The notes under the pieces are model-generated. The model worked only from the letters and a program-made list of their open reading frames with translations. It ran no database searches and was not told the origin of the DNA. Below, piece after piece: positions 12,896-26,119 of a DNA stretch of 50,088 bases. Every line of letters begins with the position of its first letter. The first letter of the stretch is position 1. Source of the DNA: a bacterium (GTDB lineage Bacteria; JAMCPX01); the NCBI GenBank assembly GCA_021792615.1, contig JAJYUJ010000020.1, forward strand, positions 1 through 50,088, given 5' to 3'. A program made the translations under genes and the position numbers.

Positions 12896-15139
12896 ATGAA
12901 ATTTATAAAAATAATATTGTTATCCTTCATAATTACGATAGGAGGCACCGGTGTTTTAAAGGCAGATACCCTGTCTTCATCCGGCACGCTCATACTACAT
13001 GTTTCGATAGGTCATACAGGCAAACCCTTGCCGGGCGCTGCCATAACGGTTCGCTCGGACAGTGCGACGATAACCGGCACTACGAATACCTATGGCCAAT
13101 GTATCATTGCCAGCCTGAAACCCGGCATCTACAGCGTTAAGATACATGCAAAGGAATTTGAAGAACGAACAATAACGATCAACATTACCGGCGGGCAGGC
13201 CTCGCTGCACGATATCAATCTCCATAGCGAACTTGTCTATACGGTGCATGCACATACACTGGTCATGAACACGAAAAGTTCTTCATCTTCTACAGAAATA
13301 TCGCACAAAACAGTATCGGCTTTAGCAGGAAGCGACAACCTTTCCAAGCTACTGTATACGGTTCCCGGTGCTGCACAGGGACCTTTTGGAGAGGTGCATT
13401 TCCGCGGTGCCCACACAGAAATAACGTACAGAATCGACGGCGTCGATATACCTTCCGCTGTCTCGGGAAGCTTTTCGGACATACTCGATCCTCAGGACAT
13501 CCAGAGTATAGACGTCATGACAGGCGGTTATCCCGCCGAATATGGCAACAGCCTTGCCGGTGTCGTAAATATTACAACCAGACAGCATCCGGAAAAGGAG
13601 ATAGGTATAAAAGAAGGCAACTTCGACACACACAGCATAAACTTTAATGTCTCGGGCAACAAATCCGCATTCACCTATGCTTTATCGGGCATAAGCTATT
13701 TTACGGGCAGAGGTCTCGACACCCCGGTTGTAAACCCGATTCACGACAATCTGTTAAAACATTCGTTGTTCGGTAATTTCAGCTATATGATTGACAACAA
13801 CGACAGGGTGAGTGTGCTGCTGTACGGGGATATATCTCAATATCAGATACCGAATACGGACCTTCAACAGGCTCTTGGGGTGAATGATAATCAGAACGAA
13901 TCCAATGATTATGAAACCATCCTCTGGCACCACAATTTCCAGAGTGATTCCAATCTTGTCGTATCTGTGTACAGGCGCGGATCCACACTCGGCTACGACG
14001 GGAGCCCTTCTGATCTGTACGGCGGCTCGGTCACATCCCCTGCATACCTGAACGATGTTGCCGAGTCATTCCTTGGTTCCGGGGCTCAGGCAAATTATAC
14101 AAACGAGGTACTAAAGCACAATCAAATAAAGGCTGGAGCAAGCTACAAGTATTTGATCAACAAACAGTACTTCTTTCTGGCTGAAAGCCCCCAATCATAT
14201 CCGCCATTTTATGATAACCATACGGACAGGGGGTTCGAATACAGCGGTTACTTGCAGGATGAATTGTCGTATGATCCCGTGACGATAAATGCCGGACTCC
14301 GGTATGATTACATCAATGAATATGTCGCTGCCGATCAGCTCAGCCCGCGTATCGGGATAGCGGTAAAACTCTTAAAAACAAATTCTATCCACGCTTATTA
14401 TGGACGTTTTTTCCAGCCTGCACCGTTCGAAAATATCCATGTAAACTCAATACCCATGTTTGCGAACCAGAATATGAGTATACCTCTTCAGCCTGAGCGT
14501 GACAACTACTTCGAAGTCGGAGACCAGCAGATGATAACCGATTATCTCCTCGCAAAGCTTACCTGGTACTACAAACTGATGACCAATGTTATAGATTACA
14601 ACCAATTGCTGAATTCCAACATCTATGTTCCCTATAATATCCAATCCGGTTATACCAGGGGCATTGAATTCAGCATTAAATCAAGAGAGGTTGACGGGCT
14701 GTCCGGAGAGTTCAACATAGCGTGGGAACGGTCTCAGGGAAAGGGCGCTATAACCGGCGGATTGTTCACGGTCGAACCGGTACCGCAGGGCTATTTCTAT
14801 TTCGATCACGATCAAACATACACGTCCTCGGCACTCATCAATTACCGGGACCACGGATTCTGGAGCACGCTTGATCTCGAATACGGCAGCGGTCTCCCGT
14901 ATGGATACAATGCTGTTACAGGGGATGTAAACTATTTAAGGGTCCCTCCGCACACTATTGCAGGTTTAAATTTAGGATACAATTTCGAAAAGGGATTCTA
15001 CCTTGGCAAATCGGATATAGAACTTGATATAGGCAATATCCTGAACACATCGTATCTGATAAACCAGCAAAACGGATTTAACAATACCCATTGGGGGAGT
15101 CCGCGTACCATAGCTATTCTGTTTAAAAAATATTTGTGA
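12896..15139 (+). CDS. TonB-dependent outer-membrane receptor
   Basis: A 747-residue receptor. It starts with a signal peptide (about residues 1-23, ending VLKA) and a carboxypeptidase-regulatory-like domain (about 30-110; TGKPLPGAAITVRSD). The plug domain follows (about 130-225: YRIDGVDIPS, MTGGYPAEYGNSLAGVVNITT in part). The remaining 500 residues show alternating aromatic beta strands of a 22-strand barrel. The substrate cannot be told from sequence. The gene is followed 8 bases later by exbB, exbD and tonB, so this receptor has its own energising complex. A strong AAGGAGG lies before the ATG. A metal chelate or vitamin is possible given the small HDHP protein upstream, but this is a guess. 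Confidence 0.9.
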   Translation: MKFIKIILLSFIITIGGTGVLKADTLSSSGTLILHVSIGHTGKPLPGAAITVRSDSATITGTTNTYGQCIIASLKPGIYSVKIHAKEFEERTITINITGGQASLHDINLHSELVYTVHAHTLVMNTKSSSSSTEISHKTVSALAGSDNLSKLLYTVPGAAQGPFGEVHFRGAHTEITYRIDGVDIPSAVSGSFSDILDPQDIQSIDVMTGGYPAEYGNSLAGVVNITTRQHPEKEIGIKEGNFDTHSINFNVSGNKSAFTYALSGISYFTGRGLDTPVVNPIHDNLLKHSLFGNFSYMIDNNDRVSVLLYGDISQYQIPNTDLQQALGVNDNQNESNDYETILWHHNFQSDSNLVVSVYRRGSTLGYDGSPSDLYGGSVTSPAYLNDVAESFLGSGAQANYTNEVLKHNQIKAGASYKYLINKQYFFLAESPQSYPPFYDNHTDRGFEYSGYLQDELSYDPVTINAGLRYDYINEYVAADQLSPRIGIAVKLLKTNSIHAYYGRFFQPAPFENIHVNSIPMFANQNMSIPLQPERDNYFEVGDQQMITDYLLAKLTWYYKLMTNVIDYNQLLNSNIYVPYNIQSGYTRGIEFSIKSREVDGLSGEFNIAWERSQGKGAITGGLFTVEPVPQGYFYFDHDQTYTSSALINYRDHGFWSTLDLEYGSGLPYGYNAVTGDVNYLRVPPHTIAGLNLGYNFEKGFYLGKSDIELDIGNILNTSYLINQQNGFNNTHWGSPRTIAILFKKYL

Positions 15140-15147
15140 GGTGAAAC

Positions 15148-15774
15148 ATGCAAAACATATCAAATGCGTTACAGTTTATCATGAAAGGCGGGATCATGAT
15201 GTACCCGCTTCTGTTCGTATCCGTCGTATCCATGGCATTGATCATCGAGAGGCTGATGTTCTTCGCCAAGATAAACAATCTGGATGTCTCATTACTGCAA
15301 AAAACAAAACACCTGTTAACGGACAATAAAAGGGAAGACTTAAGGGCTTTTCTGTCGAGCCAAAAAACGCCGGTTGCCGATGTACTCATGACCGGCGTGG
15401 ATACCATGGATTCAAATGCGAACGACATGGATATTGCAATGGAGCAGCACGCGGTCAGTATCATACCGAAACTCGAAAGTAAATTATGGCTGCTTGATAC
15501 CATTATCACCATGGCACCCTTGCTCGGGCTCCTTGGCACCATAACCGGTATGATCAAGGCGTTCCAGATATTCTCGACAAAAGGTCTGAACCAGCCCACC
15601 GCAATATCCGGCGGCGTTGGCGAGGCACTTATAGCGACGGCAACCGGTTTGATCGTTGCTGTTTTTACCCTGCTGTTTTACAACTACTTCAACACAAAGG
15701 TACGGCGATTGATAAAGGACATGGAGTTTGCGTCCAATGAATTCCTCAGAATGGTCAAGCAGGTAGAGCCATGA
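15148..15774 (+). CDS. exbB: ExbB/TolQ-family proton channel subunit
   Basis: A 208-residue inner-membrane protein with three predicted helices (about 13-31, 113-135, 158-180). The conserved MAPLLGLLGTITGMIKAF and the GVGEALIATATGLIVAV segments are the MotA/TolQ/ExbB signature. It uses the proton gradient, with ExbD, to drive TonB. It is placed between the receptor and exbD, with a GAGGTG Shine-Dalgarno, which favours ExbB over TolQ; a separate tolQ exists at 40166-40900. Confidence 0.92.
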   Translation: MQNISNALQFIMKGGIMMYPLLFVSVVSMALIIERLMFFAKINNLDVSLLQKTKHLLTDNKREDLRAFLSSQKTPVADVLMTGVDTMDSNANDMDIAMEQHAVSIIPKLESKLWLLDTIITMAPLLGLLGTITGMIKAFQIFSTKGLNQPTAISGGVGEALIATATGLIVAVFTLLFYNYFNTKVRRLIKDMEFASNEFLRMVKQVEP

Positions 15775-16175
15775 AGATACGGCAATTGGAACCGCCGAAA
15801 AAGGCACGGATAGAGATCATCAACATGATCGATGTGATATTCTTCCTGCTGGTGTTTTTTATGGTTACATCCGCCTCCATCATAGCCATGAAAGGGATCA
15901 AGGTTGATCTTCCGCATGCATCGACAGCAAAAACGACGGATGCCAAATTTATAACCATTACCCTGACAAAAGGCCAAAAGCTTTTTGTCAACGGCAAAAA
16001 GACGAACCCGGACCGGCTCTCTGCAAAGCTGTCGCAGGAGCTTATAGAATATCCGGATGATGTGGTTGTGATCAATGCTGACAGGGATTCTAACTATGGC
16101 GCTGTTGTAAACATCATGAATATATCCCGGGAAGCCGGTGCAACGAAATTCGCCATTGCAGCCGTAACAAAATAA
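15771..16175 (+). CDS. exbD: ExbD/TolR-family subunit
   Basis: A 134-residue protein with a single N-terminal transmembrane helix that carries the essential aspartate (NMIDVIFFLLVFFMV), then a periplasmic domain. It overlaps exbB by 4 bases (ATGA), so it is translationally coupled. It belongs with ExbB and the TonB protein that follows 5 bases later. Confidence 0.92.
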   Translation: MKIRQLEPPKKARIEIINMIDVIFFLLVFFMVTSASIIAMKGIKVDLPHASTAKTTDAKFITITLTKGQKLFVNGKKTNPDRLSAKLSQELIEYPDDVVVINADRDSNYGAVVNIMNISREAGATKFAIAAVTK

Positions 16176-16179
16176 AATT

Positions 16180-16815
16180 ATGGAAACGGATCAGCAAAAG
16201 ATATTTTTGATTGCAGCAGCCACTCTTGCGGTAGCGCTGCACATTGTCGCATTGTACGCCATAGGATGGATAGGCATATCAAGCAGGAAACAGCCGCAGA
16301 AAATCCTTATCCCCGTAACGATGCAGATAAAACCTTTCGACAAAGTCACCAAACCAAAGATACCCGTTCGCATAAGTCATATTCATCCGCAACGGATCCA
16401 TCCGGTCAAAACCGGGCATAACAAGTTTTTGGCAAGTTCCACAACGACAAATCATGGATTTTCAGTACCATCCGGAGGAAACATAAAGGCAGGAACAGTG
16501 CTTGCACATCAGGGTACATCAGCTACTTCAACATCCTCAGACAGCATCTTCCTGCCCCCCATACCGATCTTTAATCCGCTGCCTGTTATACCATCAAACC
16601 TGAGAACACACGGGTACAGTACGTACGTGCGGGTTGAATTCTTTGTAAGCAGGGATGCTTCGTTTACCTCGAAACTGCTGTCATCCACAGGCTATGATGA
16701 ATTGGACAGAGTGGTGATAGATACACTCAAGAAGTGGAAATTTTCTCCCGCAACCATGGACGGGCAACCGGTAAACGGTACGCTGAAGCTGCGCATACAG
16801 TTTTCAGTAAATTAA
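16180..16815 (+). CDS. tonB: TonB-type energy transducer
   Basis: A 211-residue protein with one N-terminal helix (about residues 9-29), a proline- and Ser/Thr-rich periplasmic linker (about 40-140), and a C-terminal TonB domain with VRVEFFVSRDASF, the YDELDRVVIDTLKKWKFSPA motif and a final LRIQFSVN. It contacts the TonB box of the receptor and passes on energy from ExbB/ExbD. No clear Shine-Dalgarno is seen, so it is probably coupled to exbD. It ends the operon; a hairpin follows at once. Confidence 0.9.
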   Translation: METDQQKIFLIAAATLAVALHIVALYAIGWIGISSRKQPQKILIPVTMQIKPFDKVTKPKIPVRISHIHPQRIHPVKTGHNKFLASSTTTNHGFSVPSGGNIKAGTVLAHQGTSATSTSSDSIFLPPIPIFNPLPVIPSNLRTHGYSTYVRVEFFVSRDASFTSKLLSSTGYDELDRVVIDTLKKWKFSPATMDGQPVNGTLKLRIQFSVN

Positions 16816-16875: not shown

Positions 16876-18342
16876 CTACGGGTAGGAAGCAAGGGCGATC
16901 TGCCAGTGCGCTCCGTCGAAATACGAGCAGTAAAGGAACATACTGTTTATGAGAAAATCGGGAGACTGAGTACCGCTCATAATGCTCAATCTTGGATTCG
17001 TGTATGACTTTACCCATGTCATGCCATCTTCCGATGTTGCATAATTAATAGTCAGATTTCCTGTTGCGCTGATGCCCGTATAATACATTTTATACACGCT
17101 CCCGTCTTTCGTAACACTGGGAGCATACGCACCATACGTATCAGGACCGGAGCCCGAAACATCGACGACCGGGGCTTCCGCGCCGTTGGAACTGAACTTC
17201 GTCCAATTTACACCGTCAAGAGACGTAGCATAACCGATGCGCCATGTCGTGCCGTCATAACCGGCGAACCACATCTTATATATGCCGCTGTCCTTTATGA
17301 CAACCGGGAATGCTGCACCTCTATAATCCCATGCACCTGTCGTACCTGTATTTAACGCCGGAGTACTGTTTACGGTCCAGGTAATACCATTAGCAGAGGT
17401 TGCATAGCCGATGCGCATGAACGTGCCGTCATACCCTGTAAACCATGCCTTAAAAATACCGTTATCAAACATCAGACTTGTGCCGGAAATGTCCGCAGAA
17501 TAAAACGTTGACGTGCTTATGCCCATGACCGGGTTGCCGTATTTCGTCCATACCCTGCCGTCTGCCGACGTGGCTAACCCTACGTTCCACGTTGTTCCGT
17601 TACTCCCCGAGTAGAGCATATAAAATTTTCCGCCCTCGTTGATCACGGACGGCCACGATACACCGGCGCTGTCCCAGCCCGAACCTGAAACTCCTAAAGC
17701 CGGCTGGCTGATAACCCGCCACGGGATAGAGAGTACGTTAATACCTATGGAGGAGGTTGCCTGCGGTGCAGACGTATCCGAAAAAGCTATGCTTGCCGGA
17801 CCTTCCCTGTTAAGCCATGCGGTAAACGTTTCGGTGCCGTTAGAAAATTGAGAGACCGAGGTCGGTGTAATGTCTCCCCAGCTTGAACGTAACATCAGGG
17901 TACCATTGTATGTCGGGAGTACCGTGCTGTTGAGCATCGCGGACACGGTTATGGAAAACGGCTGGTCTTCAATCGTTGTAAACGGCGCTGACCCGAAGAA
18001 TGAGGTTGCAAGCAGGCTCAGGACCATCGGCAGTGCCTTAACTGTCTGTCCGGCAACAACCGCGATCTGCTGGGAGCCGGACTCGTATCCGGTCATGGCT
18101 GCGTTGATTGTTTGCGTGCCCGCAGGAACGCCGGTCAGCATATAATTGCCCGATGCGTCCGTGTATGCCATAAACGGAGTTCCGCTCACATACACCAGCA
18201 CATTTTGGTATGACGACTGTCCGTTCAGCACAACACTTCCCGTAATACTCCCTGTTGAAGAGCCGTTTGATGAACTGCCGCAGCCCGCTGCGAACATGAG
18301 AACAATCATGAAAATCAATGGCAGGAGTTTCTTTGTCTTCAT
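16876..18342 (-). CDS. Exported lipoprotein: carboxypeptidase-regulatory-like domain plus five-bladed-propeller (glycosidase-like) domain
   Basis: A 488-residue lipoprotein with lipobox FAAGC (Cys21). Residues 30-105 look like a carboxypeptidase-regulatory/beta-sandwich domain (GSITGSVVLNGQSSYQNVLV in part). Residues 210-488 have at least five repeats built on motifs such as YKMWFAGYDGTTWRIGYATS and GITWTVNSTP; this pattern (YxMWYxGxD...IGxAxSxDGxxWTK) is that of GH43/GH130/sialidase-type propellers. Whether it retains enzyme activity is unknown. It is the last of four coupled genes; the Shine-Dalgarno AGGAGG is located in the last codons of the preceding gene. Probably outer-membrane anchored. 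Confidence 0.75.
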   Translation of the reverse strand: MKTKKLLPLIFMIVLMFAAGCGSSSNGSSTGSITGSVVLNGQSSYQNVLVYVSGTPFMAYTDASGNYMLTGVPAGTQTINAAMTGYESGSQQIAVVAGQTVKALPMVLSLLATSFFGSAPFTTIEDQPFSITVSAMLNSTVLPTYNGTLMLRSSWGDITPTSVSQFSNGTETFTAWLNREGPASIAFSDTSAPQATSSIGINVLSIPWRVISQPALGVSGSGWDSAGVSWPSVINEGGKFYMLYSGSNGTTWNVGLATSADGRVWTKYGNPVMGISTSTFYSADISGTSLMFDNGIFKAWFTGYDGTFMRIGYATSANGITWTVNSTPALNTGTTGAWDYRGAAFPVVIKDSGIYKMWFAGYDGTTWRIGYATSLDGVNWTKFSSNGAEAPVVDVSGSGPDTYGAYAPSVTKDGSVYKMYYTGISATGNLTINYATSEDGMTWVKSYTNPRLSIMSGTQSPDFLINSMFLYCSYFDGAHWQIALASYP

Positions 18343-18346
18343 TTTC

Positions 18347-19453
18347 CTAAAACCTCCTGTAAACTGCGTACTTTAATGCCCTGTTCCTGTAGTCCCGGTA
18401 GCTGACGTGCGCATTGTTGTTCGCATCGAGCTTCAAAGAAGAGTACAACCCGACAATGCCTTCGCCGTCGATAATATCAACGTTGAACCCCACACCGTTA
18501 TACCATGCGTATTTGAGGTCTCCGTTCACGCCGTCAAAGTAAGTTATATGCGGATATCCATAGCTGTCGATTGCAATCGAGGTGTCCGTACCCACTCCGT
18601 AGCTCGAATCCGCAATATGGATATCCCACAGTTTCCGGCTGTTGTCGTACCATGCACACTTCAACTGCTCGTTCGTTGCATCGTAATAGCTAATGAACGG
18701 TGTGCCGTCAGCCCTTATCGCAAGCGAGGCATACCTGCCCGCATCATCCCCGCTGCCGCCGTCAACCGTCGTTATCGACCATCCTGTGCCGGTAAAATGC
18801 GCGTATTTCAATGCACCGTTCGATGCATCGTAATATGCAATGGCGGGGTTGCCCGACGGATCAAGGGCAAGCGAGCTATAGAGACCAACCTGCCCGAGGA
18901 AATCTACGGTCGTAATGTTAAAACCTGAGCTTGTGCCGGTAGCCAGTTTTAAGTCGCCGTTGGTAAAATCATAATAGCTGATCACGGGCTCGTTGTTCTT
19001 ATTTATGGCAAGGGAAGCAAATCCTCCGACGTTTGCGTAAACACCGTCGACGACGGTTATGGAAAAGCCGGCATTCGTTCCCGTTGCGAGCTTCAAACGG
19101 CCGTGCGTGTTGTCATAATACGCGATGACCGGTTCGCCGTTTTTATTCAAGGCAAGGGAAGAGAACATGCCCACATTGTTTCCGCCGCCGCCGTCAACCG
19201 TCGTTATGTTCCAAGCACCGGCTGCAGCCGACCACTGTGCAAGACGCAGGCTGCCGTGGGTAACATCGTAATATGAAATAGACGGATTGCCAGAGCTGTC
19301 GAGTGCGAGCGAGGTGTATTCGCCGACATCAGCGCTGTTGTCCACAATAACCGAAGGGAACAAATTTTGTGTTTGCTGTAATCCGGATATGTCTTTACCG
19401 CAGCCTGATGCTATACCGAGTATCATGAAGAACAAAATCGCCTTTCTCATCAT
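18347..19453 (-). CDS. Exported lipoprotein with seven SYYD-type repeats (putative beta-propeller)
   Basis: A 368-residue lipoprotein with lipobox IASGC (Cys18). After a short linker it is made of seven repeats of about 44-48 residues, each with the core SLALDxxGNPxISYYDxxxGxLKxA and a [IV]TTVDG strand, which would form a seven-bladed propeller. No catalytic motif is evident; a binding function is more likely. It overlaps the upstream OmpA-type gene by 4 bases and lies 4 bases before the next lipoprotein, so it is the third of four co-translated exported proteins. I do not know a named family for it. Confidence 0.75.
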   Translation of the reverse strand: MMRKAILFFMILGIASGCGKDISGLQQTQNLFPSVIVDNSADVGEYTSLALDSSGNPSISYYDVTHGSLRLAQWSAAAGAWNITTVDGGGGNNVGMFSSLALNKNGEPVIAYYDNTHGRLKLATGTNAGFSITVVDGVYANVGGFASLAINKNNEPVISYYDFTNGDLKLATGTSSGFNITTVDFLGQVGLYSSLALDPSGNPAIAYYDASNGALKYAHFTGTGWSITTVDGGSGDDAGRYASLAIRADGTPFISYYDATNEQLKCAWYDNSRKLWDIHIADSSYGVGTDTSIAIDSYGYPHITYFDGVNGDLKYAWYNGVGFNVDIIDGEGIVGLYSSLKLDANNNAHVSYRDYRNRALKYAVYRRF

Positions 19454-20937
19454 TGCCCCTTTATTATTTTGAATTCTACCCTTCTGTTCCTCGCCCTGCC
19501 TGCCGCGGTGCGGTTTGATGCAATGGGTGATTCTTCGCCATAACCGGCCGCTGTAAGCCGGTCAGCAGCTATGCCGTGCCGGGCAAGATAGTCCATAACG
19601 GACTGTGCCCTTTTTTTCGAGAGTTCCTTATTGTATGCCGGCGAGCCTATATTGTCCGTATACCCTTCTACACGCACGTGAATATCCGGGTTATATTTCA
19701 ACAGCGTTACGACGTCATCGAGTATCGCATAAGAACCGTGAAGAATAACGGCACTGCCCAGCCTAAAATGGATGGCGTGGGTTATTTCTATCTTCATGCC
19801 GAGTTTGTTTATATAAGCATTTTTAAGCCTTGTCTTGTAGACCGAAGCCGGTTTCGGCGTTGCCGGCGGGGGTGCCTGTACCGGGACTGCATGGGGTGTT
19901 TGCTTTTTGACCGGCGCCTGATGTACGGGAGCAGGTGCAGGTGCTTCAGTGGTTGCAGCAGCCTTTTCCATGGGACAAGCTTTTTCGACAGGAGTCTTGC
20001 ACGGTATAATCTTATATCCGATTTCAACATACAGGTCCCATGGCGCGTACGGGTATGAGGTTGTCGCTGTTACATCGGAAAGCTTCTGGGGCATACCGAT
20101 GTCACCGGCGGCAAGAAGGTACAGCCTGTTTGGCAGTACAACCTTGATACCGGGGGTTATATAAAACGGATTTTGTAAAAATGACGGACTGCCGAGAGAA
20201 GCAAGACTCGCTTTGTAGTACTTGTACCCGGACGCCTGCTCTGTAGAGAGCTCGATGAACGGGTGCAGAAGGTTGTTTAAAAAAACACCTTCGAGCCCCA
20301 GGTTGCCTATGAACCTGTTGTCCCCCCGTATGCCGAGGCCATACAGTCCGGTTACATTATAACTATACGGGTTACCGATCAGGTTTGATGAATTATCGCC
20401 ATAATAACCAAGATTCACATGAACCAGCAATGGTGTAAACCGGGAAACGCCGGTCAGATTGAATGTGAACAGCAGCAGACCAAGGTAGCTTGTAGCAGAT
20501 GTATTGAAACCAAGCCCGTCCGCAGAGGACAGAAACCTCGGCTGGACAAGCGCACCGGCACTGAACCATTTGTTCAGATCATAGCCATACTTGACGGTAA
20601 GCCATACATCCCCGTTGTCATGATACGTGTTCTTGTTTAAAACAAAGGTGCTCTGATAAAGGCTTATGCCGAGGTCAAGCCCCCGCACAAGGGAGAAATA
20701 GCCGAAATCGAGATGTGAACTCAATGACTGATAGGTATTGTCACCTCCCAGGAGATTTGAGGTGTTCACATAGGTCACCCCTCCCGATTCATAAAACCCC
20801 GGCTGTGAGACGGCAGCAGATGTCGCATGCTCAAGACCCGGCTGTCCGATCACGTTTGCGTAGGTGTTCACCGCAGCTCCAAGCATCAAAACAAAAAAAG
20901 ACACACAAGAAAAAACATGAGTTCTTATCCGTTTCAT
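19450..20937 (-). CDS. Outer-membrane beta-barrel protein with C-terminal OmpA (peptidoglycan-binding) domain
   Basis: A 495-residue protein. A signal peptide (about 1-27, ending AAVNTYA) is followed by a beta-rich, aromatic region (about 40-310) that resembles a transporter-like barrel, a Pro/Ala-rich linker (about 320-365, APAPAPVHQAPVKKQTP), and an OmpA/MotB domain (about 385-495) with DIHVRVEGYTDNIGS, LSKKRAQSVMDYL and NRTAAGRARNRRVEF, the peptidoglycan-binding pattern with D and R. It is second in the four-gene operon, 13 bases after the large anchored protein, and overlaps the next gene by 4 bases. It may hold the complex to the cell wall. Confidence 0.82.
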   Translation of the reverse strand: MKRIRTHVFSCVSFFVLMLGAAVNTYANVIGQPGLEHATSAAVSQPGFYESGGVTYVNTSNLLGGDNTYQSLSSHLDFGYFSLVRGLDLGISLYQSTFVLNKNTYHDNGDVWLTVKYGYDLNKWFSAGALVQPRFLSSADGLGFNTSATSYLGLLLFTFNLTGVSRFTPLLVHVNLGYYGDNSSNLIGNPYSYNVTGLYGLGIRGDNRFIGNLGLEGVFLNNLLHPFIELSTEQASGYKYYKASLASLGSPSFLQNPFYITPGIKVVLPNRLYLLAAGDIGMPQKLSDVTATTSYPYAPWDLYVEIGYKIIPCKTPVEKACPMEKAAATTEAPAPAPVHQAPVKKQTPHAVPVQAPPPATPKPASVYKTRLKNAYINKLGMKIEITHAIHFRLGSAVILHGSYAILDDVVTLLKYNPDIHVRVEGYTDNIGSPAYNKELSKKRAQSVMDYLARHGIAADRLTAAGYGEESPIASNRTAAGRARNRRVEFKIIKGQ

Positions 20938-20950
20938 TGTTTTCCTATCC

Positions 20951-23311
20951 CTATTGTTTAGGAATTATTTTATTTTTTTTACTCTTGATTGTTTCTTTTA
21001 ACTGTCTGCCGCGTGCAGCGATGAAGGTGACGGACAACAAGACAAATGATACAAGCAGGAACACGAACACATTATTGCCGTTGTCAAACGGTACGGTACC
21101 GCATCCGCCCGATACGTTCGTCGTGACGGTATAGGTTATCGCCTCGGTAGACGAGGTATTCCCCGCCGCATCCACCGCCTTTACATACAGCGTATGACGG
21201 CCAACAGGGCTGTTCCCGACATCGATGGTGTTTTCACCGGAGCCAAGCGTCGTAAACGAAGCAGGGTTGTCCACCGCATACATAAGCCTCGTTTGAGTAA
21301 CTGCGCTGCTCGCTTTGAAGGTATAATAGGGGTAATCCGCTTTTGACAGGGTCAATTGCGGGGGTACGGTATCCACGGTAAAAAGAACGGAATCTCCGGT
21401 AACGGTAGCACCGGTTTGTGCATCCATAACCCGGAGCTGAAGCGTGTGTTGACCATCCATAAGATTATCGAGCTTTATGGTCGTATCCGTTGTCCATAAG
21501 GACCAGCCCTGCCACACAGGGCCGAACACGGATTGATCGGAAATCCTCCAGGAAACCTCTGCATGCGGAGGCAAAGCAGAACTGAGGGTAAACAGCACAC
21601 CGGAACGCGCGTTGATCAAAGGCTGCAGGGTGTTTCCTTCGAGGGACATTGTCTTCAGAGAGCCTGTCATTTGGTTATTGTATGCTAGAATACCCACCAG
21701 CGGCATTGAGAGCGTGGAGAGGTTCAGTAAATTCATAAATCCGGTTAAATCGAGATATACATTGATGTATCCGCCCGATGGTACGATATCCTTTACCAGA
21801 ACGGTCACACCGCTGAAGGAAAAAGCGGAACTCATCGCAGGCAGAGCTGTTCCGATAAAGCTTGTTGCGAGTCCCAGTCCCATTTGAATCACGCTGTTCA
21901 CATTGGATGGATTGGTCAGCTCGGATGCGAGCACCACATCGCTGATATTCATACTGCCCGGGGTGCTGTCTATGGCTATAACAAGCATAGGGTTACCGTT
22001 TGCATCCAGCTTGTTCTGATCGAGATAGACATCTCCCTTAATAGAAACATCGGCACTCAAAACAAAGGCGTCGGCGTACTGAGTATTGTAATTGGCACTC
22101 GCATCAGGGTAGGTCTGCGCCTCGTCAACGCCCAATTGTCCCTCGATGATGATGCCGTTCAGCGTAATCGTATCCCATGTATTCTGCGGCGAGCCCAGGG
22201 TAATCGTAGGCGCCTGTGTGGGTATGATCTTCAGAATCAGGGTTCCGGTACTCGGCAGTTCGGGAATCAGTCCTTTGAGCAGTCCGACAGGCAGCGGCGG
22301 AGAGGAGAAACACATCAAGCCGCTCTGATAAACAGCATATAATGCCTGGTTTATGATATCCTGAGAAACGCCGAACCCGAGCATGACATCGGACCTTGAG
22401 GTATCGATGGTAGGCGCTGCTATAGTTGGTGTAGGCGGTGCGGCGATGGGCAGCGGCAGGCATGGTGCCGGCGCTCCTGCAGGGCCCACCCCTCCGTCAA
22501 GGCTTATGTCCATTGCATTGTCGGTGATGTTCAATGCCTGGTAGAACAATGACGGCCTGAGCTGATATGCAACAGGCGGATAGGTGCCGTGGATGTACAG
22601 ATTGATATTGATTTTGCTCAGCATCTGGTTTATCTGCGGGATCAACATGTTCTGAACAGCAGAGTTCACGGCAGAATTGACACTTCCCTGAATCAAGCCC
22701 CATATTGTAGGCCATAACCAACCCGGTACTGGAAAGCCGCATAATGAAGGCGGAGATGGTTGTTGTATTGATATAGTTATATTCGGGTTCCCTACCAATG
22801 CCAATTTTAAATAATGACCATCTATACTTGGTTCCACATTCACGGACACCGAAGCATCGGCATTCAGATTATAGAGATCAAATCCGCACGAACTACAATA
22901 GAACGGCCAACCGAAGTTATACCATACTGTTCCATGAATATCAGCGATGTATACATGTATATCGTTGACTGCCAATGATATGCTTTGCGTTGCCCCGTTC
23001 CATGCAAGATTGAGGTTCGGCTGGCTATTGTATTGGCCGGGAATTGTTATTTGTGTATTAAATGAATCAATTTCATAGCCGAAATTATACCACGCTACCG
23101 GGCAACCACCCGGCACTTGAGGCACTGAATAATTCATGCTCAAGCCTGTGAAGTTCTGGGAAACATAGTTCAGGAAGGTTTGATAGACAACTATGTTTGC
23201 AGCATTGGGTTCCCAGAGCGGAGGTACAGATGTATCGGCAAACCCCTCTGTGGAAAACAATAAACCCGTTATTAAAAAAACCCCTGTCGCGAAATAAAAT
23301 AATTTATTCAT
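20951..23311 (-). CDS. Large exported protein with BPI/TULIP-like halves and a GGC-type C-terminal anchor
   Basis: A 786-residue protein of unknown function. It has a signal peptide (about 1-25, ending GFA). Two large segments (about 30-290 and 300-570) have alternating hydrophobic strands and amphipathic stretches such as SAVNSAVQNMLIPQINQML and VIQMGLGLATSFIGTALPAM, reminiscent of lipid-binding BPI/TULIP domains; this is an inference from pattern only. Residues 580-730 resemble two Ig/FN3-like sandwiches (VDTVPPQLTLS, YVKAVDAAGNTSS). The C-terminus has SGGCG (Cys737), a transmembrane helix (about 748-764) and a basic tail (RGRQLKETIK), the layout of MYXO/Synerg/JDVT-type CTERM sorting signals. 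It is first in a four-gene operon. Confidence 0.6.
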   Translation of the reverse strand: MNKLFYFATGVFLITGLLFSTEGFADTSVPPLWEPNAANIVVYQTFLNYVSQNFTGLSMNYSVPQVPGGCPVAWYNFGYEIDSFNTQITIPGQYNSQPNLNLAWNGATQSISLAVNDIHVYIADIHGTVWYNFGWPFYCSSCGFDLYNLNADASVSVNVEPSIDGHYLKLALVGNPNITISIQQPSPPSLCGFPVPGWLWPTIWGLIQGSVNSAVNSAVQNMLIPQINQMLSKININLYIHGTYPPVAYQLRPSLFYQALNITDNAMDISLDGGVGPAGAPAPCLPLPIAAPPTPTIAAPTIDTSRSDVMLGFGVSQDIINQALYAVYQSGLMCFSSPPLPVGLLKGLIPELPSTGTLILKIIPTQAPTITLGSPQNTWDTITLNGIIIEGQLGVDEAQTYPDASANYNTQYADAFVLSADVSIKGDVYLDQNKLDANGNPMLVIAIDSTPGSMNISDVVLASELTNPSNVNSVIQMGLGLATSFIGTALPAMSSAFSFSGVTVLVKDIVPSGGYINVYLDLTGFMNLLNLSTLSMPLVGILAYNNQMTGSLKTMSLEGNTLQPLINARSGVLFTLSSALPPHAEVSWRISDQSVFGPVWQGWSLWTTDTTIKLDNLMDGQHTLQLRVMDAQTGATVTGDSVLFTVDTVPPQLTLSKADYPYYTFKASSAVTQTRLMYAVDNPASFTTLGSGENTIDVGNSPVGRHTLYVKAVDAAGNTSSTEAITYTVTTNVSGGCGTVPFDNGNNVFVFLLVSFVLLSVTFIAARGRQLKETIKSKKNKIIPKQ

Positions 23312-23332
23312 AATAACAGATAATGATTATTC

Positions 23333-23360
23333 TTTAAACACATCGGAACATAAAAGTCAA
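23333..23360 (-). promoter_or_regulatory. Candidate promoter of the four-gene surface operon
   Basis: On the minus strand, TTGACT (23355-23360), a 16-base spacer and TTTAAA (23333-23338) lie 22-49 bases before the ATG at 23311. The -35 is good and the -10 is weak. There is no clear Shine-Dalgarno before that ATG. Confidence 0.35.
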
Positions 23361-23619
23361 GTGCTAAAAAAACAACTTACGATAGCCAAGTGAAAACTTG
23401 ATTCACAGTGAAATACCAAAAAGGGCAGATACTTGTTTCAAAGAGAGACTGAGATACTTGTTCAAAAGAATTGAACCATGGAAGGGAAAACCCTCGTCCC
23501 GAAGGGGCAAGGAAAGAGAACTTATTCATACATAGGTAAGCATGGAGCATCCCTCACCCACTCCGTAAAAATCACGGGGTGGAAGAATAGACACTCATAG
23601 AGATTTCTTCATCTCACGG
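23361..23619. other. Non-coding stretch with palindromes and 25-base direct repeats
   Basis: No gene is seen. CAAGT-GAAA-ACTTG (23387-23400) is followed by TTCAC-A-GTGAA (23402-23412), and AGATACTTGTT occurs twice, at 23427-23437 and 23452-23462. This arrangement of short repeats resembles the end of an IS21-type element, but no istA or istB sequence is present, so the link is weak. A CCCTCG-CGAAGGGG-type hairpin lies further on (about 23489-23508). Confidence 0.35.
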
Positions 23620-23894
23620 TTATTGCGGACCCGTGTAGGGAAAATAAGGACTGGTAACATCCAAGATGTTGGTACCATCGGTCAAAGTTACACCCGATAT
23701 TTTCGACCAATACAGATTCCATGACGAAGCTCCGTCAAATGCTGTCCAGCTTAAGGTTGTCTGACTGTACTCGACAACAACCCTTAGACCTGTCGGGGCT
23801 GAAGGGTATTACCTCTGCTCTTGCTACCACAACTGATCAAGGCAATACCTAAGAAATAAATACAGAGTATTCTAATAATCTTCATGTTCATCAT
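23620..23894 (-). pseudogene. Frameshifted fibronectin-type lipoprotein
   Basis: From the ATG at 23894 the frame encodes a lipoprotein signal peptide with lipobox LISC (MKIIRILCIYFLGIALIS core), then stops at 23784. In the next frame the reading continues with PTGLRVVVEYSQTTLSWTAF and DGASSWNLYWSKISGV, a pattern well known from fibronectin-III-like repeats (PTGLxAxxxxxxVTLSWxAVxGAxSYNLYWS), and ends at the TAA at 23620-23622. The two halves join near 23793 if one base is restored. The whole product would be only about 90 residues, so it may also be 3'-truncated. It encodes the same kind of exported lipoprotein as its neighbours. Confidence 0.65.
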
Positions 23895-23939
23895 ACTATA
23901 ATCCTTTTACAAAAAGGACTTCTAATGCCTTAAAATTAT

Positions 23940-25070
23940 TTAGTGTATAGCATACAGCTTGCCATCCCCGGACCCCACATAGATGGTACCGTCCGCACCA
24001 ATCGCAGGCGATGAATCAATCCAATTCCCGGTTGTGTAACTCCATTTAAGGGTTCCATTGGGATTAATAGCATACAGCTTGCCATCTCCGGATCCTACAT
24101 AGATAGTGCCATCCGCTCCTATCGCCGGTGATGAATCAATCCAATTCCCGGTTGTGTAACTCCACTTGAGGGTTCCATTCGGATTAATAGCATAAAGCTT
24201 GTGGTCATCAGACCCCACATAGATAGTACCGTCCGCCCCTATTGCTGGCGACGAGTATATAGTGCTTCCCGTGGTGTAGCTCCATTTGAGTCCGCCATTG
24301 GGATTGATTGCATAAAGATTATCATCAAATGATCCGATGTATATAATCCCATCATTTCCTATCGCTGGAGAAGATTGAATTTCACCGTCAGTGGTGTAGC
24401 TCCATTTGAGGCCGCCATTGGGATTGACTGCATAAAGATTACCATCAAACGATCCGATATATATAATTCCATCAGTTCCTATCGCCGGGGAAGAGGTTAT
24501 AGGACCATTGGTGGTATAACTCCATTTCACGGTTCCATTTTGATTAATCGCATAGAGTTTGCTTCCCAACCCAACATAAATTGTCCCATCTACTCCTATC
24601 GCAGGAGAGGAAATTCCCCCAATAGTAGTAGCGCTCCATTCGACACCGCCATTCAAATTGAAAGCGTAGAGATAAGTATTTTCTAGGCTGTAAATTGTTT
24701 TATTTACTCCTATTGCTGGTGAAGATTGTATAGATAAATTACTACTACCATAATCCCATTTAAGACTACCTGAGGGACTTATTGCATAGATCTTGCCATC
24801 TTCTGAACCTATATAGATTGTACCATCTACACCTATCACTGGCGCTGAATCAATCCAATTGCCTGCAGTCGTGTAGCTCCATTTGAGTGCACCTGTTGTG
24901 GAAGTTGTATCGGTGGTGCTTAACCCGGTATTCCTTATGTTTCCTCGGAATTTCGGCCACGGTGAATTTGCCAGACCATTAGGCATATTGCTTTTATTCT
25001 TCCCGCAACCAGCTATCAGAGCAAAGGCAATAAAACAAAGAATTGTAAATTTGGAAACATTAGTTTTCAT
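23940..25070 (-). CDS. Exported lipoprotein with PQQ-like beta-propeller repeats
   Basis: A 376-residue lipoprotein with lipobox LIAGC (Cys22 from the ATG at 25070, which has AAAGGA 8 bases before it; the longer TTG start at 25076 lacks this). The body is eight to nine tandem 40-residue repeats of the form SSPAIGADGTIYVGSGDGKL + YAINPNGTLKWSYTT. Such repeats belong to the outer-membrane-protein-assembly BamB/PQQ-like propeller superfamily, and a closed propeller of eight blades is likely. No cofactor or enzyme motif is evident, so the role is probably binding. The protein stops in the middle of a repeat (KLYAIH). It stands alone. Confidence 0.82.
   Translation of the reverse strand: MKTNVSKFTILCFIAFALIAGCGKNKSNMPNGLANSPWPKFRGNIRNTGLSTTDTTSTTGALKWSYTTAGNWIDSAPVIGVDGTIYIGSEDGKIYAISPSGSLKWDYGSSNLSIQSSPAIGVNKTIYSLENTYLYAFNLNGGVEWSATTIGGISSPAIGVDGTIYVGLGSKLYAINQNGTVKWSYTTNGPITSSPAIGTDGIIYIGSFDGNLYAVNPNGGLKWSYTTDGEIQSSPAIGNDGIIYIGSFDDNLYAINPNGGLKWSYTTGSTIYSSPAIGADGTIYVGSDDHKLYAINPNGTLKWSYTTGNWIDSSPAIGADGTIYVGSGDGKLYAINPNGTLKWSYTTGNWIDSSPAIGADGTIYVGSGDGKLYAIH
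23946..24900 (-). repeat. 120-base coding tandem repeats of the PQQ-like lipoprotein
   Basis: The motif (A/T)GCATA(C/A)AG(C/A)TT recurs with a spacing of exactly 120 bases at about 23951, 24071, 24191, 24311, 24431 and 24551, each unit giving 40 residues. The two most 3' units encode the same 40 residues but differ at about a dozen synonymous sites, so the repeat is protein-conserved rather than freshly duplicated. The units nearer the gene start are more diverged. Confidence 0.85.
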
Positions 25071-25131
25071 AATCAATTCCTTTTATCCTTAATAAGATTT
25101 TCACTTCTCGGATTGCCCCACTTATATACGT

Positions 25132-25356
25132 TCACCATGTGGGGCAGCCGCTTCCCCCTGTATAAGCAGGAACTGTTTGAACATTTGATGTGTAGCTGTC
25201 ACTCATAATACGTATTGATATAGTTCCCGGGGGTACCGGAGCATGATGAAAAGCCAAATACGGTATTTCTGTATCCGGATCGAAGCATACCCCGGAAGAG
25301 ATATGAACGGGTTTTGGGACAGCTTTTATACCACTTTTAAGGTGAAAAACTTCCAT
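25132..25356 (-). CDS. Unknown short exported-protein fragment
   Basis: A 74-residue frame with the reading MEVFHLKSGIKAVPKPVH and a final GGSGCPTW. In the same frame about a dozen sensible codons (NFWYNQSNGGSKL) continue upstream of this ATG before a TAA, so this is probably the C-terminal remnant of a larger gene, not a complete one. No signal, no domain and no Shine-Dalgarno are seen. I do not recognise it. It lies between the PQQ-like gene and an IS remnant. Confidence 0.25.
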   Translation of the reverse strand: MEVFHLKSGIKAVPKPVHISSGVCFDPDTEIPYLAFHHAPVPPGTISIRIMSDSYTSNVQTVPAYTGGSGCPTW

Positions 25357-25446
25357 CAGTTTACTACCGCCATTTGATTGATTGTACCAGAAATTCCGCT
25401 TTTATTCATCATGTCATAAATACCCACTTCCATATTCGGAGCTGAT

Positions 25447-25556
25447 CTAGGCCAGAGTCTGTTCTCCCCTGAATGCTTCCAGAGCGATCTTTGCCTTCAG
25501 CCCTGCTTCGATTGTCTTTTTCATTCTAAACCTCCCTTTAGGCTTCTCTTACTACA
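25447..25556 (-). mobile_element. IS3-family element remnant: left end and start of orfA
   Basis: On the minus strand, the ATG at 25524 has a GGGAGG Shine-Dalgarno (25531-25536) and encodes KAKIALEAFRGEQTLA, the start of IS3/IS911-type OrfA (KAKVALEAlRGEkTLAElas). A TAG at 25447-25449 replaces the expected Glu codon, followed by ISSEY, the next family residues, so this is a nonsense-mutated and then truncated copy. The presumed left end is TGTAGTAAGAG starting at 25556; IS3 elements begin with TG. No orfB is present. Confidence 0.65.
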
Positions 25557-25710
25557 TTTCTTCACCCAAAGTAAGCTCTAAAAGTTGTCTATATCTTCCC
25601 GACCCTATAGTCTGCCTGCTTAAGAATGCGTACAACCTTTTCATAACCTTTTGCTTTCTGAATAAATTGAAGACAGCATAACTATCAAAAAGAAATGGTC
25701 CCTTGGGCAT
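25552..25710 (-). pseudogene. Truncated VapC-type PIN-domain toxin
   Basis: The ATG at 25708-25710 overlaps the vapB stop by one base (TAATG). The frame gives FLFDSYAVFNLFRKQKVMKR then RQLLELTLGEEM and stops. This is the N-terminal part of a PIN domain: the first acidic residue in FDSYA, then the LGE motif with the second acidic residue, normally followed by about 80 further residues. The frame ends at the point where the IS3-type left end begins, so the toxin was most likely interrupted by the insertion. It should be inactive: the last two acidic positions and the fold are lost. Confidence 0.65.
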
Positions 25711-25937
25711 TATATACGCTCGTTGTTTCGTTCTTGAATAAGCTTTTTCGCAAGAGAAGGCACAGAGGGCAGCACATAGCATGCGGCCTTGATAGCGTTG
25801 TGGACCGGTGGAACGAGATATATTATGCCATTGTACTCCGAAATCTGTATTGTGGTGCCTGGTTCTATATGATATTTTTTTCTTATGACAGACGGTATTA
25901 CAATCTGTCCTTTTGAAAGGGTTTTAAAATTAGACAT
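25710..25937 (-). CDS. VapB/AbrB-type antitoxin
   Basis: A 75-residue SpoVT/AbrB swapped-hairpin protein: FKTLSKGQIVIPSVIRKKYHIE and GTTIQISEYNGIIYLVPP are the classic DNA-binding half of VapB/MazE-type antitoxins. Such proteins bind their own promoter and neutralise the partner toxin. The toxin gene downstream is broken, so this is an orphan antitoxin, which may still repress. Shine-Dalgarno AGAGG lies 10 bases before the ATG. Confidence 0.8.
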   Translation of the reverse strand: MSNFKTLSKGQIVIPSVIRKKYHIEPGTTIQISEYNGIIYLVPPVHNAIKAACYVLPSVPSLAKKLIQERNNERI

Positions 25938-26119
25938 AATTATCCAACCTCTTTTTAAAAGTCATAAATTTATAATGAACTATACAACTTTAAAATTGTT
26001 CAATCAAGTCTATTACATGCCAAAAGGTATTTTTTGTTTTTATGTGATTTGGGTTGCTCAATCATAACTGTTGAAGAATGCTGCGGTATATGCTCTTTAG
26101 CAGGAAGAGAATAGAATAC

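Follow-up and report, generated by a model that had tools for sequence, protein, structure and literature searches.

The closest described relatives of the protein treated here are the eukaryotic BPI, LBP and CETP, in which two barrels are joined in one chain. Bacterial TULIP folds are also known, namely YceB, DUF4403, DUF2140, DUF2993 and P47/OrfX, of which DUF4403 likewise forms a two-barrel pseudodimer, and when earlier surveys identified TULIPs in bacteria, it was only at the limit of remote-homology detection (PMC6791001, PMC5507252). A similar gene layout has been described for TraA and TraB of Myxococcus xanthus, with a polymorphic N-terminal domain, a stalk, a Cys tail cut by myxosortase and an OmpA-domain protein encoded next to it (PMC3325183, PMC3820747). 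Cys-type tails are cut by myxosortase, and proteins carrying them reach the cell surface via the type II secretion system (T2SS) (PMC11980579). Here, we analyze an operon of four exported-protein genes on the minus strand (16876-23311) of a bacterial DNA stretch of 50,088 nucleotides (contig JAJYUJ010000020.1, referred to as the window), the first of which encodes a 786-residue protein with homology to BPI. We consider it about an even chance that this product is a lipid-handling receptor which is tethered to the surface, carries an exchangeable barrel for specificity and has a propeller lipoprotein as its ancient partner.

A BPI-type protein of 786 residues

The first gene and its predicted parts are located as follows:

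20951-23311, minus strand: gene 1, predicted surface TULIP protein of 786 residues with signal peptide, two BPI-type barrels, two immunoglobulin (Ig)-like domains and a GGC-type tail
22607-23239, minus strand: N-terminal TULIP barrel, residues 25-235, from the AlphaFold model and Foldseek matches to BPI/LBP/CETP
22650-23139, minus strand: swapped segment, codons 58-221, foreign allele with respect to the sister genome G003, from the divergence comparison
21632-22405, minus strand: predicted C-terminal TULIP barrel, residues ~303-560, with the family motif GFGVSQDIINQALYAVYQSGLMC
21113-21574, minus strand: two Ig-like domains, residues ~580-733, from Pfam (Big_13 over the cut-off at 673-729)
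20954-21112, minus strand: C-terminal sorting tail with SGGCGT (Cys737), a hydrophobic helix and a K/R-rich end

A preliminary description of this DNA had proposed BPI/TULIP-like halves for the large protein. Fold search and family profile both bear this out, and together they confirm its assignment as a predicted two-barrel TULIP of the BPI/LBP/CETP type. Structure prediction by AlphaFold yielded low-confidence models in two runs, both of which contain the TULIP pattern of helix, long antiparallel strands and long helix twice. In Foldseek searches of the PDB with either model, CETP, LBP and BPI ranked first with ~530-575 alignment columns spanning both barrels, at an E-value of 1e-10 for the first model and of 2.4e-14 (BPI) to 1.3e-13 for BPI/LBP/CETP with the second. 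The N-terminal barrel is the better-modelled half, the predicted local distance difference test (pLDDT) score being mostly 70-89 over residues ~45-235.

At the sequence level, a profile of 18 relatives from which the window group had been left out found BPI as its sole significant match in the PDB (E 1.3e-8), and the family profile including the window group retrieved BPI (2.2e-9) and LBP (2.9e-7). A family hidden Markov model (HMM) built without the window group gave 43 bits (E 1e-12) for the barrel region of the window protein, the best decoy among ~1000 shuffles reaching 7.8 bits. Two family members show weak BPI C-domain Pfam matches at the shared motif. The window protein has no match to PF01273/PF02886 at the gathering cut-off, which is a curated threshold and not a structural feature, and its relatives reach E-values of 0.0014-0.056. 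Likewise, DUF4403 and other bacterial TULIP families of Pfam gave no match, family searches in Pfam and NCBIfam returned Ig matches only, the PDB search with the single 786-residue sequence was negative, and a fold search of a virus library found nothing at E <= 0.001. When the close orthologues were compared profile to profile with a first distant set, the Ig part alone was aligned; a wider, TULIP-only set resolved the barrels. The protein contains 7 Cys. Relatives of 510-517 residues (L082:1700-3232, L085:2808-4361) consist of the two barrels alone, without Ig domains or tail.

Replacement of the N-terminal barrel

The window genome and G003 are about 96% identical outside the swapped segment, and their synonymous divergence is ~0.1 in the genes for the OmpA, SYYD and glycoside hydrolase (GH)-like proteins and in most of gene 1. 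Over codons ~51-245 of gene 1 it is far higher and saturates in places, with an amino-acid identity of 58-72%. The break points are sharp and located at codons 58 and 221. Inside the segment 25 of 40 four-fold sites differ versus 34 of 320 outside (p 1e-12), and the G+C content is 0.43 inside versus 0.50 outside. Codons 58-221 are replaced by a foreign allele via recombination, a kind of exchange seen in recognition proteins, and it is the window genome which carries the newcomer, because the G003 version shares ~90% identity with its G001 and G002 counterparts.

Two further cases concern the same half of the protein. In another lineage, the orthologues of G271 and G135 share 41-59% identity over residues ~95-340 and 90-100% in the remainder downstream (p 1e-14); no excess in the N-barrel is seen in a control pair taken from these genomes (L088/L089). 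Tandem TULIP genes of G007 (L032:4623-11123) have 1821 identical 3′ bases and differ in the N-terminal part, which looks like gene conversion sparing the N-barrel. Polymorphism confined to the N-terminal part, as in TraA, was found in a small number of genomes.

The operon, its sorting tail and its partners

The remaining genes of the operon follow gene 1 head to tail:

19450-20937, minus strand: gene 2, 495 residues, outer-membrane barrel (by inspection), Pro-rich linker and OmpA peptidoglycan-binding domain (19483-19767)
18347-19453, minus strand: gene 3, 368-residue lipoprotein with SYYD repeats (predicted propeller)
16876-18342, minus strand: gene 4, 488-residue lipoprotein with CarboxypepD_reg domain and predicted SxDGxxW repeat propeller, distantly GH130/GH43-like

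The order TULIP, OmpA, SYYD and GH-like with gaps of 13, -4 and 4 bases agrees with the operon first proposed and is kept in G003 (L025) and in G001 (L026), where the fourth gene is cut by the contig end; in G002 the contig ends within the TULIP gene. This conservation goes beyond chance. Identities to the counterparts in G003 and G001 are 73-98%, and the nonsynonymous divergence is well below the synonymous one in all four genes, so the reading frames are real. A promoter and terminator scan gave a result no better than that for shuffles. The window is part of contig C38 in a genome of 2.54 Mb, and the isolate names of relatives together with a single-family phylum suggest an uncultured acid-mine-drainage phylum as the source group, perhaps SZUA-79.

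The GGC-type C-terminal anchor of the preliminary description stands as well. The tail, SGGCGT...KETIKSKKNKIIPKQ, combines a Cys, a transmembrane helix and a basic end in the layout of a myxosortase substrate, and the motif SGGCGT, helix and K/R-rich end are conserved in all full-length orthologues apart from that of G007 (SDGCGT). The sole CPBP protease of the genome passes the Mrt_core model NF040914 (112 bits, cut-off 100), as do proteins of G006, G007, G022 and G051. In G022, a TULIP gene follows 160 bases after the myxosortase gene (L190:5619-7552), which places the sorting enzyme beside a likely substrate. GspD, the T2SS secretin, is also present in the window genome over its cut-off, and a surface location of the gene 1 product is probable. 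No MYXO-CTERM match was found across the window genome, and gene 1 is alone in carrying a GGCGT tail; a second candidate (C22) was rejected as it is out of frame. In L193, L194 and L195, a myxosortase gene of the window family follows apparent dprA, topA and mutS genes (by inspection).

The partnership with the SYYD propeller extends far beyond the genus. In a survey set of 386 genomes, genes for distant TULIP proteins with Ig domains and tail immediately precede SYYD genes in two genomes of the window phylum (G006, G007) and also in G022, G056, G196 and G158/G296. This adjacency spans five phyla, a count which results because the families of G051/G196, G158/G296, G022 and G056 are each the only representative of their phylum in the set; OmpA and GH genes are not part of it. 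A sandwich of TULIP, SYYD and TULIP genes recurs. By our count, 22 genomes have a TULIP barrel match, 20 a strong SYYD match and 12 both, a co-occurrence that is biased because neighbours of TULIP genes supplied the SYYD profile. No such bias affects the adjacency in G196, G158 and G296, since these loci were found via TULIP and scored with an SYYD profile not containing them. The best reading makes the SYYD propeller the ancestral partner of TULIP, to which individual lineages have added OmpA and GH. In three genomes of one family (L072:7100-12578, L073:7314-12414, L074:6011-11202), two pilin-like genes (FTLIE) are located directly after a TULIP gene of 1342-1377 residues.

These data bear on the simplest alternative, ordinary co-transcription, in which a single genus has placed four envelope proteins under one promoter although they are unrelated and have no joint role. 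It gains from the separation of the last three genes from the TULIP gene in G007 and from TULIPs which elsewhere stand alone or beside other lipoproteins. However, a TULIP gene directly upstream of one or more SYYD genes in five phyla is far above chance for few genes among thousands, and we regard co-transcription alone as unlikely. The preliminary idea of a joint four-part system holds insofar as the same four genes occur together in G003 and G001, but only at genus level, the trio being apart from the TULIP gene in G007. The myxosortase, the breadth of the TULIP family and the swapped N-terminal barrel had no place in the preliminary description.

As for the individual partners, gene 2 matches PF00691 (E 1.8e-22) and contains the peptidoglycan-binding motif TD..G....N..LS..RA, in line with the proposed barrel protein that could be fixed to the wall. 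Gene 3 has no Pfam family; its blade motif repeats about every 48 residues after an ASGC lipobox. Repeats and lipobox support the predicted SYYD lipoprotein, of whose seven blades, an earlier count, a strict pattern caught five. Gene 4 has an AAGC lipobox. PF04041 exceeds its cut-off over a portion of the domain, and the NCBIfam equivalog reaches 47.9 of the required 450 bits. This GH130/GH43-type propeller match is partial and leaves a putative glycosidase-like lipoprotein, and the suggested handling of glycans found no support beyond such weak propeller similarity.

The surroundings of the operon vary between the genomes. Genes for a TonB-dependent receptor, ExbB, ExbD and TonB (12896-16815, plus strand) converge on it in the window. 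They are absent in G003, where an M48 protease gene is located ~240 bases from the GH gene. The cluster appears to have been inserted into the window genome and was rejected as part of the system. On the other side, ~2.8 kb (23312-26077) with a gene for a PQQ-type propeller lipoprotein (23940-25076, minus strand) separate gene 1 from an RlmL-like methyltransferase gene; in G003 these two are just ~70 bases apart.

Possible functions and comparison with known systems

Under the preferred reading, the gene 1 product would carry two hydrophobic tubes of the BPI type on a stalk of Ig domains tethered to the surface, where a tube may bind or pass a lipid-type ligand. The N-terminal barrel would be the exchangeable part that sets the choice of ligand or partner surface, and its co-made partners at the outer membrane would be the peptidoglycan-fixed OmpA-family barrel and both propeller lipoproteins. 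The lipid ligand, the formation of a complex and the specificity role of the N-barrel are parts which we infer.

Several observations weigh against this reading. The two AlphaFold runs reached a mean pLDDT of 48.5 and 55.9 and a predicted template modelling score of 0.31 and 0.37, the C-terminal barrel being of low confidence, so the models support the barrel geometry only roughly. TM-scores to BPI/LBP/CETP are low (0.39 at most), and for this reason the sequence evidence was relied on as well. The tail has no match among the NCBIfam sorting models including MYXO-CTERM TIGR03901/TIGR03382, so gene 1 can be called a putative myxosortase substrate. The replacement of the N-barrel rests on metagenome-assembled genomes, in which assemblies may be chimeric; chimerism is unlikely as the whole explanation because three cases affect the same half. 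Within the same family, G007 has the OmpA-SYYD-GH trio in the same order without TULIP and the TULIP orthologue alone on another contig; the four-gene operon is therefore a genus-level arrangement of two units. Furthermore, an orthologue of the 786-residue protein is missing from one genome of the same genus and three of the same family, and G006 has distant relatives only.

Among the other functions considered, recognition with outer-membrane exchange as in TraA/TraB would have the polymorphic N-barrel bind cells of a matching type (self or kin), with the OmpA partner completing a lipid-moving device. The layout is that of traAB including the OmpA-domain partner immediately downstream (PMC3325183, PMC3820747, PMC11980579), the sharp replacement of the N-barrel resembles TraA alleles, and a TULIP would suit lipid exchange. 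However, PA14 and Cys-rich repeats are absent by Pfam, gene 2 reaches 94.5 bits with the TraB model NF033763 (cut-off 700) through its OmpA domain only, and TULIPs of other phyla and of G007 lack an OmpA partner. Such an exchange system seems rather improbable. The same holds for lipid scavenging or exchange with vesicles or neighbours in the manner of CETP/PLTP, in which phage or grazing pressure and not partner choice would drive the variation of the N-barrel: CETP and LBP are among the best fold matches, the anchors are predicted to be surface-exposed and the variation is limited to one domain, but no transporter is conserved alongside, the adjoining TonB system being missing in G003. A BPI-like weapon binding lipid A of other Gram-negative bacteria is highly improbable, since the N-barrel is acidic (2 Lys, no Arg, net charge -8), unlike the cationic lipopolysaccharide-binding half of BPI, and the protein is probably anchored to its producer, although no solved structure is closer to it in sequence and fold than BPI.

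Beyond the receptor reading preferred here, a wider proposal can be made tentatively and with considerable doubt: bacteria would possess a widespread surface system, so far undescribed, in which lipid-tube proteins of the BPI type, their N-barrels being exchangeable, act together with propeller lipoproteins as recognition receptors passing lipids between cells, as a lipid-tube counterpart of TraA/TraB. That human BPI is retrieved by nothing more than the sequence profile of a broad bacterial family bears on the origin of BPI-type proteins. The sorting tail, the adjoining propeller lipoproteins in several phyla and the replacement of the N-barrel only make it testable whether lipid tubes serve as variable recognition or lipid-exchange receptors.

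Searches of the open-access literature yielded no paper on a family of this kind, and within this literature the absence of a described system of the same composition, as noted at the outset, is upheld. With BPI/LBP/CETP, the window protein shares the two barrels in one chain, the significant profile match to BPI, the best fold match and the expected extracellular location. It differs in being bacterial, in its Ig stalk, sorting tail and acidic N-barrel, and in remaining below the Pfam LBP_BPI_CETP cut-offs (best relative E 0.0014). The bacterial TULIPs YceB, DUF4403, DUF2140, DUF2993 and P47/OrfX are, in the accessible parts of the sources, nowhere described with an Ig stalk, a myxosortase-type tail, a propeller partner or a polymorphic barrel (PMC6791001, PMC5507252). 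With MYXO-CTERM proteins and the myxosortase MrtX (PMC11980579) the locus has in common the Cys, helix and basic tail and an Mrt_core protease in the genome, but the tail is unmatched by TIGR03901/TIGR03382 and the genome, judged by its relatives, is probably not of Myxococcota. Finally, the shared layout with TraA/TraB stands against the lack of PA14 and Cys-rich repeats and a TraB similarity confined to the OmpA domain below the model cut-off; the locus is therefore TraAB-like in layout and not homologous to TraAB.

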